From the NCBI GenBank assembly GCA_029582155.1, contig CM055901.1, positions 2,977,001 to 3,041,000 of the forward strand: 64,000 nucleotides of DNA, read 5' to 3'. The notes below the pieces were generated by a model. The model was not told where the DNA came from and searched no databases. It was given only the letters and a program-made list of their open reading frames with translations. Position 1 is the stretch's first letter. The number at the start of each line of letters is the position of its first letter. Origin of the DNA: Panopea generosa. Taxonomy: Eukaryota > Mollusca > Bivalvia > Adapedonta > Hiatellidae. The position numbers and the translations under genes were made by a program. This document shows, piece after piece, positions 46,559-63,543 of the stretch.

Positions 46559-46682
46559 GTTTACATTGGCATCATGTGGCATACTGGGAAGATGGGTGTG
46601 GCGTATTACGATGTTGATACAACTCAGGTTCATGTAATGTTGGACACACAGGAAACAGATGAATTTAAATTATTGCTCAGAG
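46559..46682 (+). CDS. MSH5: MSH5, meiotic MutS homologue 5: first exon recognised
   Basis: MSH5 pairs with MSH4 as MutS-gamma, which clamps meiotic recombination intermediates and promotes crossovers. This exon reads VYIGIMWHTGKMGVAYYDVD, then VHVMLDTQETDEFKLLLR; human MSH5 has CVLWNSGYLGIAYYD in the same place, near its N-terminus. Acceptor TTGTATCAG|GTTTAC (phase 0), donor CTCAGAG|GTACTT (phase 1). The next exons continue in phase along the human protein, so the assignment does not rest on one exon. The true first exon (a short, usually poorly conserved leader) was not found upstream. Human MSH5 is about 830 aa, so only about the first quarter is in this window. The introns are full of SINEs and minisatellites. 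Confidence 0.9.
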
Positions 46683-49315: not shown

Positions 49316-49396
49316 TGATAAAGCAAGTCAATCCATCACAGATAATCCTGAGTTCCAAGCAGGATGAGAGATTGCTGCAGGTGCTGAGAACATATG
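49316..49396 (+). CDS. MSH5: MSH5, exon: N-terminal domain continued
   Basis: Reads VIKQVNPSQIILSSKQDERL, then LQVLRTYG; human MSH5 has VLDEINPQSVVTSAKQDEN here. Acceptor TTATTTCAG|TGATAA (phase 1), donor ACATATG|GTGGGT (phase 1). 81 nt. Confidence 0.9.
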
Positions 49397-49815: not shown

Positions 49816-49974
49816 TGGGGGATAGGGGAACTGAGTCAAGATCACATACACTGCATAATGTATCTTTATATATTGGTCAGTTTTTATCAGTTTGATGGAA
49901 AGAATTCTCAAGAATATCTATAAATCTGTATTTTTAAGAATGTTTACTGATATTTCAATATCTAGTGTGTTGCT

Positions 49975-51665
49975 AGAGCAGTAGTATGCTAAAATTGTTT
50001 AGTTTGGGCTGAGCAGCTAGAGCAGTAGTTAGCTTGAATGGATTAATTTGGGCCCAACAGCTAGAGCAGTAGTATGCTCGAATTGTTTAGTTTGGGCCGA
50101 GCAGCTAGAGCAGTAGTAAGCTTGAATGGATTAGATGGGCCCAGCAGCTTCAGTAGTAGTAGGCTTGAATGGATTAGTTTGGGGCCTGTGAGCTAGAGAA
50201 GGAATATGTTTGGATAGATTAGTTTAGGGCCCAGGAACTAGAGAAGGAATATTTGTGGATGGATTAGTTTGGGGCCTAGGAGCTAGAGAAGTTATATGTT
50301 TGGATGGATTAGTTTGAGGCCCAGCAGCTAGAGCACTAGTATGTTTGGATGAATTAATTTGGGGCCCAGGAGCTAGAGCAGGAGTATGCTTGGATGGATT
50401 AGTTTGGGGCCTAGCAGCTAGAGCTATACTAGCATTGAATGGATAAGTTTGGGGCCTAGGAGCTAGAGAAGTTATTAGATTTGATGGATTAGTTTGGGGC
50501 CAAGCAGCTAGAGCAGTAGTATGTTTGGGTGGATTAGTTTGGACCCAGCAGCTAGAGCAGTAGTATGCTTGGATGGATTAGTTAGGGGCCCATCAGCTAG
50601 AGCAGGAGTATGGTTGAATGGATTAGTTTGGGGCCCAGCAGCTAGAGAAGTTATATATTTAGATGGATTAGTTTGAGGCCCAGCAGCTAGAGCAGTAGTA
50701 TGTTTGGATGGATTAGTTTGGGACTCAGCAGCTAGAGCAGGAGTATGTTTGGATGGATTAGTTTAGGACCCAGCAGCTAGAATAGGAGTATGGCTGTATG
50801 GATTAGTTAAGGGCCTAGCAGCTATGGAAGGAGTATGGTTGGATGGATTAGTTTAGGGCCCAGCAGCTAGAGAAGGAATATGTTTGGATGGATAAGTTTT
50901 GAGGCCCAGGAGCTAGAGAAGGAATATGTTTGGATGGATTAGTTTAGGGCCCAGCAGCTAGAGAAGGAATATGGTTGGATGGATTAGTTTGGGGCACGGC
51001 AACTAGAGCAGGAGTATGGTTGGATGGATTAGTTTGAGGCCCAGGAGCTAGAGAAGGAATACGTTTGGATGGATTAGTTTCGGGCCCGGCAGCTAGAGCA
51101 GGAGTATGGTTGGATGGATTCGTTTGGGGCCGAGCAGCTAGAGCAGGATTATGTTTGGATAGATTAGTTTGGGGCCCTGCAGCTAGAGCAGGAGTATGGT
51201 TGGATGGATTAGTTTGGGCCCTGTTGCTAGAGAAGGAATATGTTTGGATTGATTAGTTTAGGGCCCAGCAGTTAGAGAAGGAATATGGTTGGATTGATTA
51301 GTATGGGGCCCGGCAGCTAAAGCAGGAGTATGATTGGATGGATTAGTTTGGGGCCCTGCAGCTAGGGCAGGAGATTGTTTGGATGGATTAGTTTGTGGCC
51401 CTGCAGCTAGAGCAGCAGTTTGTTTGGATGGATTAGTTTGGGGCCCTGTAGCTACAGCAGGAGTATGCATGGATGGATTAGTTTGAGGCCCTGCAGCTAG
51501 AGCAGGAGTTTGCATGGATGGATTAGTTTGAGGCCCTGCAGCTAGAGCAGGAGTTTGTTTGGATGGATAAGTTTGGGGCCCTGTAGCTAGAGCAGGAGTA
51601 TGCATGGATGGATTACTTTGACGCCCTGCAGCTAGAGCAGGAGTAGACTTGAATGGATTAGACTT
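49975..51665. repeat. 45-bp minisatellite, about 37 copies
   Basis: Unit: ATGGATTAGTTTGGGGCCCA, GCAGCTAGAGCAGGAGTATG, TTTGG. Right-hand copies are more homogeneous (CCCTGCAGCTAG) than left-hand ones. The period is a multiple of 3, so the minus strand shows a 115-codon ORF with a 15-residue repeat (PALAAGPQTNPS). It sits in an MSH5 intron, so it is not considered coding. Confidence 0.9.
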
Positions 51666-54988: not shown

Positions 54989-55069
54989 TGAGTAATGTTA
55001 CCAATGCTGCTGCAGACAGTATGGAGGGGAACAACAACATGCTGCAGTTTTTACCCAGTATTGATTTCT
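54989..55069 (+). CDS. MSH5: MSH5, exon: start of connector region
   Basis: Reads VSNVTNAAADSMEGNNNMLQ, then FLPSIDF; human MSH5 has IIFLPSVDF at this point. Acceptor TTTCACAG|TGAGT (phase 1), donor GATTTCT|GTAAGT (phase 1). 81 nt. Confidence 0.9.
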
Positions 55070-56825: not shown

Positions 56826-56947
56826 CGATAGAAATATGCAAGAGAAGAGTGCTGTCTATAGACTTGCCTTCCATCCCAGATCATTTTATGGATACAGAGC
56901 GAACGATGTATATGTCGTCATTGATTCCCTTTGAAAATTCATGTATG
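56826..56947 (+). CDS. MSH5: MSH5, exon: connector region
   Basis: Reads SIEICKRRVLSIDLPSIPDH, then FMDTERTMYMSSLIPFENSC-M. Human MSH5 has GLEISKQRLL, then ATEKILFLSSIIPFDCLLT in register. Acceptor TTTATTTCAG|CGATAG (phase 1), donor TGTATG|GTATGC (phase 0). 122 nt. Confidence 0.92.
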
Positions 56948-61159: not shown

Positions 61160-61269
61160 GTACGTGCGATGGGAGGTCTGCTGAAATATTTGGAGAAGAT
61201 GAGGATTGGTATAGAGCTGGAGGAAATGGGAACAAAGCTGCCAATCTTGGACGTCAAAATTTTCACTCT
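61160..61269 (+). CDS. MSH5: MSH5, exon: end of connector region
   Basis: Reads VRAMGGLLKYLEKMRIGIEL, then EEMGTKLPILDVKIFT-L(partial). Human MSH5 has VRALGGLLKFL, then [20 protein letters not shown] in the same register. Acceptor ACACTGTAG|GTACGT (phase 0), donor TCACTCT|GTATGT (phase 2). 110 nt. The leftover CT is completed to Leu by the first G of any copy of the microexon array. Confidence 0.93.
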
Positions 61270-62445: not shown

Positions 62446-63543
62446 CATATTTCTGTATTTCAGGGAAAGTCAGATGGTTTTGGATGACACGGCATTCAGG
62501 TAAGTCATATTTCTGTATTTCAGGGACAGTCAGATGGTTTTGGATGACAATGCATTCCGGTAAGTCATATTTCTGTATTTCAGGGAAAGTCAGATGGTTT
62601 TGGCTGACACGGCTTTCAGGTAAGTCATATTTCTGTATTTCAGGGAAAGTCAGACGGTTTTGGATGACACTGCATTCCGGTAAGTCATATTTCTGTATTT
62701 CAGGGATAGTCAGATGGTTTTGGATGACACGGCATTCAGGTAAGTCATATTTCTGTATTTCAGGGAAAGTCAGATGGTTTTGGATGACAATGCATTCAGG
62801 TAAGTCATATTTCTGTATTTCAGGGTAAGTCAGATGGTTTTGGTTGACACGGCATTCGGGTAAGTCATATATCTGTATTTCAGGGAAAGTCAGATGGTTT
62901 TGGATGACACGGCATTCAGGTAAGTCATATATCTGTATTTCAGGGAAAGTCAGACGGTTTTGGATGACACTGCATTCCAGTAAGTCATATTTCTGTATTT
63001 CAGGGAAAGTCAGATGGTTTTGGATGACACGGCATTCAGGTAAGTCATATTTCTGTATTTCAGGGAAAGTCAGATGGATTTGGATGACACTGCATTCGGG
63101 TAAGTCATATATCTGTATTTCAGGGAAAGTCAGATGGTTTTGGATGACACGGCATTCTGGTAAGTCATATATCTGTATTTCAGGGAAAGTCAGATGGTTT
63201 TGGATGACACTGCATTTGGGTAAGTCATATTTCTGTATTTCAGGGAAAGTCAGATGGTTTTGGATGACACGGCATTCGGGTAAGTCATATTTCTGTATTT
63301 CAGGGAAAGTCAGATGGTTTTGGATGACACGGCATTCGGGTAAGTCATATTTCTGTATTTCAGGGAAAGTCAGATGGTTTTGGATGACACGGCATTCAGG
63401 TAAGTCATATTTCTGTATTTCAGGGAAAGTCAGATGGTTTTGGCTGACACGGCTTTCAGGTAAGTCATATTTCTGTATTTCAGGGAAAGTCGGATGGTTT
63501 TGGATGACACGGCATTCAGGTAAGTCATATTTCTACCTTTCAG
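62446..63543 (+). repeat. MSH5: Tandem array: 18 copies of an MSH5 microexon with its own splice sites
   Basis: Eighteen copies, exactly 60 bp each with no indel: a 36-nt exon copy starts at 62464 + 60k (k = 0 to 17), followed by 24 nt that begin GTAAGTCATAT and end TCTGTATTTCAG. All 18 keep the AG acceptor and a GTAAGT donor. Exon variants: ESQM, DSQM (copies 2, 5), ESQT (4, 9), VSQM (7), ESRM (18); VLDD, VLAD (3, 17), VLVD (7), DLDD (11); DTAF or DNAF (2, 6). The split last codon varies: AG in 9, GG in 5, CG in 2, TG in 1, CA in 1. No copy has a stop inside the exon. Retaining any spacer gives TAA at once in the MSH5 frame. The last spacer differs (CTACCTTTCAG) and leads into CTTCCTTATGAGG, which is soon closed by TGA. 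ORFs of 129 and 236 codons in another frame are artefacts of the 60-bp period. Confidence 0.95.
62464..62499 (+). CDS. MSH5: MSH5 36-nt microexon, first of 18 tandem copies
   Basis: Spliced to the previous exon it reads (CT)G GAA AGT CAG ATG GTT TTG GAT GAC ACG GCA TTC AG, i.e. L-ESQMVLDDTAF-(S/R). Together with the upstream end the clam reads ILDVKIFTLESQMVLDDTAF; human MSH5 reads [20 protein letters not shown] over the same 20 positions with no gap. This is the helix that opens the MutS core domain (hhhD..T...L pattern). Acceptor TTTCTGTATTTCAG|GG, donor TTCAG|GTAAGT, phase 2 on both sides, so the exon is frame-neutral. The following exon (expected to start near the LQIF motif) lies beyond the window. 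Which copy is used cannot be read from the sequence. Confidence 0.85.

Follow-up and report, generated by a model that had tools for sequence, protein, structure and literature searches.

The MSH5 gene of the clam Panopea generosa carries a 36-nt microexon in 18 tandem copies, each inside a 60-bp repeat unit that also contains an acceptor and a donor site. The array lies in the window analysed here, a stretch of 64,000 nt (contig CM055901.1, positions 2,977,001 to 3,041,000 of the forward strand, assembly GCA_029582155.1). It is probably a tolerated splice-boundary minisatellite of the type described as mirages in amphioxus, with the whole constitutive microexon in every unit and one copy spliced in. 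The array is a whole-exon mirage: one unit spans the entire exon, the host is a bivalve and the gene is meiotic. It is better described as a striking example of a little-known repeat type than as a proven device for protein diversity. The case shows that a highly repetitive array of splice sites can lie within a conserved meiotic gene.

Anatomy of the Array

The array occupies positions 62446–63525 on the plus strand. Cutting by hand yielded 18 units in head-to-tail order, each exactly 60 bp long and none with an indel; Tandem Repeats Finder reported 62446–63534 with a period of 60, 18.1 copies, 94% matches and 0% indels. Each unit consists of 18 nt on the acceptor side, 36 nt of MSH5 exon and 6 nt of donor. 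The exon copies start at 62464 + 60n. An AG ahead of the exon copy and a GTAAGT behind it are present in all 18 units, and no copy has a stop in the MSH5 frame. The hand cutting bears out the original prediction of 18 units, each with an exon copy and a 24-nt dual-site spacer, and of the absence of indels, stops and lost splice dinucleotides.

The 18 exon copies represent 13 distinct sequences and encode 12 distinct peptides. Exon copy 1 (62464–62499, plus strand) encodes ESQMVLDDTAFS, has the donor CAG/GTAAGT and is preceded by non-repeated intron ahead of its acceptor. Copy 18 (63484–63519, plus strand) encodes ESRMVLDDTAFS, with an arginine in position 3 that is absent from orthologues. The 18 spacers have only three distinct sequences, one of them the edge spacer behind copy 18. 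Donor and acceptor are found together in each 24-nt spacer. Thirteen of the 17 inner spacers are identical, and the remaining four have one A for T in common; the first is GTAAGTCATATTTCTGTATTTCAG at 62500–62523 (plus strand). The edge spacer GTAAGTCATATTTCTACCTTTCAG (63520–63543, plus strand) is a diverged partial unit that closes the array. Its last 18 bases are identical to the 18 bases before copy 1 in 15 positions. Direct-repeat flanks of this kind would let tandem repeats grow via unequal exchange, and they may equally be worn array ends. A search of the 1.474-Gb genome (39 contigs) located the array at a single place. Another frame, interrupted by a stop in copy 7, is open over 148 and 241 codons; because it differs from the MSH5 frame, the array was rejected as a coding repeat.

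The MSH5 Gene Model

MSH5 exons were located by tblastn with the MSH5 protein of Mya (P0001), then delimited by GT–AG bounds and an open joined frame. The model has 26 exons and 2373 nt, all bounded by AG/GT, in one open frame to a TGA with one array copy used. It spans 46559 to 116177 in window-extended coordinates, for which neighbouring stretches of the same genome were added. Its introns are 797 to 12658 nt long. The model begins at the first exon located (exon 1, 46559–46682), and N-terminal exons upstream are not part of it. Exons 2 (49316–49396), 3 (54989–55069) and 4 (56826–56947) follow on the plus strand in the joined frame. Exon 5 (61160–61269, plus strand, 110 nt), just upstream of the array, shares 97% identity with Mya MSH5 over 37 residues and ends in phase 2. 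The microexon is exon 6, and exon 7 starts at 64542, beyond the window. Exon 5 ends with two codon bases; a copy gives the third and itself ends with two, and exon 7 gives one. The joined peptide across exons 5, 6 and 7 reads ...IFTL-ESQMVLDDTAFS-ALQIF.... The expected phase fit to exon 5 holds in this joined open frame.

The model combines MutS_III (E 1.2e-29) and MutS_V (E 5.1e-53) domains in one open gene. The microexon encodes model residues 174–185, and the Pfam match to MutS domain III begins at residue 184. The placement of the microexon at the start of the MutS core is confirmed, as it lies just before the domain III match. A Pfam scan of three raw frames gave no MutS match, nor did 49 residues searched against the PDB.

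Among 397 candidate proteins, 76 had E <= 0.001, and the named ones were mostly MutS protein homolog 5 or MSH5. Of the MSH5 proteins retrieved, that of the soft-shell clam Mya arenaria came closest, with 79% across the first query. A search for partial products yielded 17 candidates, none at E <= 0.001. The microexon segment is present at the same place in 73 of 77 orthologous MSH5 proteins. The four without it are a Mercenaria model (P0002, labelled LOW QUALITY), from which precisely the 12 residues are missing, a Mya model that is partial (P0014), a later-starting fragment and one protein unaligned there. The full-length Mya protein P0001 has the 12 residues. By its sequence, the microexon is a genuine MSH5 exon and not chance, because it is needed for the 26-exon model to be continuous with the orthologues. 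MSH5 models in the public record are irregular around the microexon in Mercenaria, Mya (partial model) and Ruditapes. The Ruditapes model P0059 is without exon 5, has the segment and reads ...DFR-ESQMILDDTAYC-ALQIF; the end of the upstream intron seems to have been read as coding here.

Splice Sites of the Copies

The remaining MSH5 junctions supplied a position matrix for scoring the splice sites, and their own leave-one-out scores served as the reference range. The acceptors of the array copies score 11.1–12.6 (other MSH5 junctions 2.5–20.6) and the donors 5.7–10.6 (2.9–11.8). Since these scores fall inside the leave-one-out range, all 18 copies look usable for splicing. Site scores by themselves are weak evidence, because the scores of copy 1 are equalled or exceeded at other places in MSH5 by 11 donors and 83 acceptors, numbers that include real sites.

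Joining of adjacent copies would require a 24-nt intron. Skipping one copy leaves an intron of 84 nt, which is feasible. A spacer would serve as donor or as acceptor, not both, because the donor and any branch point would overlap within it. Human introns of 43, 49 and 56 nt were reported to be spliced (PMC4463651), and no animal intron near 24 nt was found in the open-licence literature of PubMed Central. The ciliate Paramecium bursaria has a median intron length of 24 nt (PMC12862383). Shortness alone is thus no absolute proof against adjacent-copy joining.

Variation Among the Copies

Variant states relative to the consensus number 16 in the 36 exon sites and one in the 24 inner-spacer sites (binomial P 0.002). 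Variable sites are 12/36 in the exon and 1/24 in the inner spacer (Fisher P 0.009). Both comparisons are post hoc, and with the edge spacer included, 4/24 spacer sites vary (Fisher P 0.23). The lower variation of the inner spacers is unexpected for a purely neutral array, and splice competence of all copies could be maintained.

The exon variant states comprise 13 non-synonymous and three synonymous changes. Possible single changes in the exon are 85 non-synonymous, 20 synonymous and three stops. The coding changes look unconstrained, because 13 of 16 is near the 85 of 105 expected for random non-stop changes. Ten of the 18 copies hold only residues seen in orthologues, and eight have a residue never seen there. 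Copies 3, 7 and 17 are altered at an aspartate conserved without exception in an alignment of 29 sequences; in 73 proteins, this position is D in 68, E in four and N in one. Most copies do not look protein-selected, given near-random coding changes and foreign residues in eight copies. The pattern speaks against all copies serving as protein. Copy 1 encodes the consensus peptide, and all its residues occur in orthologues; one residue of copy 18 does not.

Interpretation of the Array

With 60 bp, the unit is short enough to enclose the whole 36-nt microexon with both splice sites. We infer that the array expanded through slippage or unequal exchange, for which the near-identical 18-bp flanks may have served, in the same way as the other arrays of a genome rich in tandem repeats. 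The array could be tolerated because every unit restores the splice signals and the frame is kept with one, several or no copies. The 24-nt spacers, with donor and acceptor superposed, are probably too short as animal introns, so adjacent copies would not be joined. Splicing from exon 5 would therefore take one copy and skip the others, and one included copy is the most likely outcome. The copy used is most likely copy 1, because an ordinary non-repeated intron precedes its acceptor and it encodes the consensus peptide. Copies 8, 10 and 16 also encode this peptide, so the peptide does not single out copy 1. Copies 1, 10 and 16 even have identical unit sequences as far as their spacers.

Alternatively, the array may be a relic that is skipped, which would leave the MSH5 of this species without the 12 residues. 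Skipping is frame-neutral, and the Mercenaria and partial Mya models are both devoid of the segment. However, gene predictors often miss microexons, the Mercenaria model is the one labelled LOW QUALITY and the full-length Mya protein retains the segment. Copy 1 has kept the consensus peptide and strong predicted sites, and a relic seems unlikely. Inclusion of several copies would join donor i to acceptor i+2 and add 12 residues to MSH5 per extra copy. The intervening 84 nt would be a normal size for a short intron, and any number of copies preserves the frame, but a second segment copy occurs in none of the 77 orthologues within the aligned stretch, and the segment directly precedes MutS domain III. 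We consider this outcome improbable. An assembly artefact can hardly account for the array. The copy number of tandem arrays can be misassembled, and the window contains a 500-N gap elsewhere, but the array is only 1.08 kb long with 13 distinct exon copies and no indels. The assembly is made up of 39 contigs, with lengths of up to ~100 Mb, and arrays of this kind occur in several genes.

A regulated, mutually exclusive exon cluster would choose one of the 18 copies and provide up to 12 MSH5 peptides at the entrance of the core domain. Such clusters can use competing RNA structures, as in insect Dscam1 (PMC6071210). The clam array shares with Dscam1-type clusters a tandem row of homologous exons that agree in length and phase. 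The 12 distinct peptides fit such a cluster, very short spacers would enforce exclusivity through crowding, and the inner spacers vary less than the exons, which is not significant once the edge spacer is counted. The array differs from Dscam1 by its 24-nt spacers, by near-identical copies and by the missing coding constraint on alternative exons (13:3 versus 85:20 possible). Eight of the 18 copies carry residues unseen in orthologues, three of them at the alignment-invariant aspartate. No docking–selector pairing stands out clearly; the observed energy of unit pairing with the flanking introns was reached by 16/40 shuffles upstream and 3/40 downstream. Regulated choice among the copies is very unlikely on these grounds. 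The most far-reaching reading is a genome with thousands of splice-boundary minisatellites, a number extrapolated from a small sample of 72 exons, in which the MSH5 array is an unstable cassette of 18 splice-competent exons whose choice and number vary between individuals or germ cells. The core-domain entrance of MSH5, and hence crossover control, would then vary. We regard this reading as quite unlikely; a variable MSH5 cassette has little support.

Further Arrays Within MSH5

Two other exon edges of MSH5 are arrayed. The end of exon 14 with its donor forms a 58 bp x 8.6 array, and the acceptor with the start of exon 15 a 57 bp x 17.2 array. The acceptor TAG of exon 15 is retained in 15/15 aligned units, which were picked by their exon part. 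A 29-bp array at 93553–95561 in the intron between both exons resembles the exon-14 end. The arrays of this intron are built mainly from its own two ends, probably including the 29-bp unit. Tandem arrays make up 3471/3787 nt (92%) of this intron (region at window-extended positions 92867–96714; L004 8867–10000, L005 1–2714).

The MSH5 gene contains 19 merged arrays that cover 16.8% of its length. Three of them lie over splice junctions (four junctions); random placement gave a mean of 4.3 arrays and 7.6 junctions. At least three junction-covering arrays were obtained in 87% of 5000 random placements. An array origin targeted at splice sites is not needed, as junction coverage (3 versus 4.3 expected) shows no enrichment in MSH5. 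A repeat-rich genome and tolerance by splicing suffice as explanation, and nothing more is needed. Other MSH5 introns contain arrays as well. A 45 bp x 37.7 array at window positions 49972–51661 has open frames on both strands. A 47 bp x 27 array at window-extended positions 101950–103218 ends 4 nt before exon 18 (103222).

Comparison With Known Repeats at Exon Boundaries

Mirages were described in amphioxus as tandem repeats of intron/exon boundaries in Adh3, globin and other genes (PMC3087553). Their units are 10–160 bp long, many with AG/GT, and unstable in length. They leave regular splicing undisturbed according to Adh3 data and globin RT-PCR (PMC3087553). In amphioxus PGBD5, splice sites are covered by repeats of 60 and 108 bp whose numbers differ between two assemblies, and TnC was named as a further case (PMC3902484). 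An annotator-made exon of two PGBD5 repeats was rejected by the authors (PMC3902484). Together, the two articles describe, in Adh3, BflGb6/BflGb9, TnC and PGBD5, boundary copies of minisatellite size in several genes of one genome, as found in the clam. Both 5' and 3' boundaries are affected in amphioxus, and copy number varies between haplotypes or assemblies (PMC3087553, PMC3902484). In the clam MSH5, repeats span both boundaries of exon 6, the exon-14 donor and the exon-15 acceptor, and AG/GT is found in 18/18 repeats of the exon-6 array. In the amphioxus globin and PGBD5 cases described, the repeats overlap one exon edge. This also holds for both other MSH5 arrays, whereas the 18-copy unit includes a whole conserved exon with both boundaries. 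Splicing of the amphioxus globin genes was checked by RT-PCR; the clam array was analysed in genomic DNA.

Other systems are less similar. The oyster alternative oxidase gene has a duplicated terminal exon whose alternative use was demonstrated with mRNA (PMC5589949). The likeness is a tandem exon duplication in a bivalve; the two terminal-exon copies are diverged and form no minisatellite. Human minisatellites at exon–intron boundaries can create new introns (PMC2812944). These expanded segmental-duplication repeats can likewise lie at exon–intron boundaries and affect splice sites. Half of the human cases are in the coding sequence of recent paralogues, in contrast to the whole microexon of a conserved meiotic gene in the clam. 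The original prediction that this kind of minisatellite was undescribed needs to be narrowed. Boundary minisatellites are published as amphioxus mirages and recur here in MSH5, kinesin, myosin and SNF2 genes. The whole-exon unit stands out: a repeat unit holding an entire exon with both splice sites was not found in open-licence PubMed Central. Searches of the same literature found no bivalve mirage, no MSH5 microexon and no minisatellite exon duplication in a mollusc.

The genome offers a test bed for how the spliceosome selects one of numerous near-identical sites and how new introns or exons arise from minisatellites. It is equally suited to studying why exons of this sort drop out of gene models, as in the Mercenaria model without these 12 residues.

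Boundary Repeats in Other Genes

Boundary minisatellites are frequent in this bivalve: tandemly duplicated boundaries were found in 6/72 sampled exons of other gene families, in addition to 3/26 exons of the MSH5 model. By family, these were kinesin 1/30, myosin 2/12, SNF2 3/19 and MutS_V 0/11. The sample included 11 of 12 MutS_V matches (the twelfth is MSH5), the best 30 of 126 kinesin matches, the best 12 of 81 myosin matches and 19 of 57 SNF2 matches, chosen by hand and mostly from the top of the list. The 72 exons come partly from one gene or from near-identical paralogues and are not all independent. Flanks of 1500 bp were analysed for 53 exons (Tandem Repeats Finder, >= 2.5 copies) and of 250 bp for 19 exons (>= 1.9 copies).

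Exon end and donor are repeated in one kinesin exon (L041, 43 bp x 35) and in two myosin exons (L061, 41 bp x 5.2; L056, two copies). In SNF2 exons, the repeats include a donor in L073 (51 bp x 2.7) and an acceptor in L075 (98 bp x 2.4) and L079 (118 bp, two copies). A uniform self-comparison of the sampled exons gave seven candidates. Two were rejected: L040 is of low complexity, and the repeat of L028 abuts the acceptor without including it. L075 escaped the self-comparison, as its domain match begins within the exon.

The kinesin array (L041 1–1519, C11 near 30826718) repeats the exon end EIYNEKVHDLLDLKG with its donor. Before ATAT, 29 of its units read GGGTTAGT and two read GGGTAAGT. Two further loci, L053 and L085, were chosen for their repeated look and are outside the 6/72 count. 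L053 (878–1419, C3:29577001–29580000) contains a protein tyrosine phosphatase exon with both sites three times (197 bp x 2.8); matches at C3:30225280–30225834 are similarly spaced. The genome-wide pattern TTTCAG-gap-GTAAGT-gap-TTTCAG occurred 319 times forward and 306 times in reverse, versus 282 and 147 for the reversed-pattern control. As an array finder it was rejected as unspecific against this control, though it led to L085. L085 (603–3130, C4:41825001–41828400) repeats a unit of ~55 bp at least 38 times, and in most of the units 34 nt separate TTTCAG from GTAAGT. Its last unit continues into an open stretch, a possible terminal exon.
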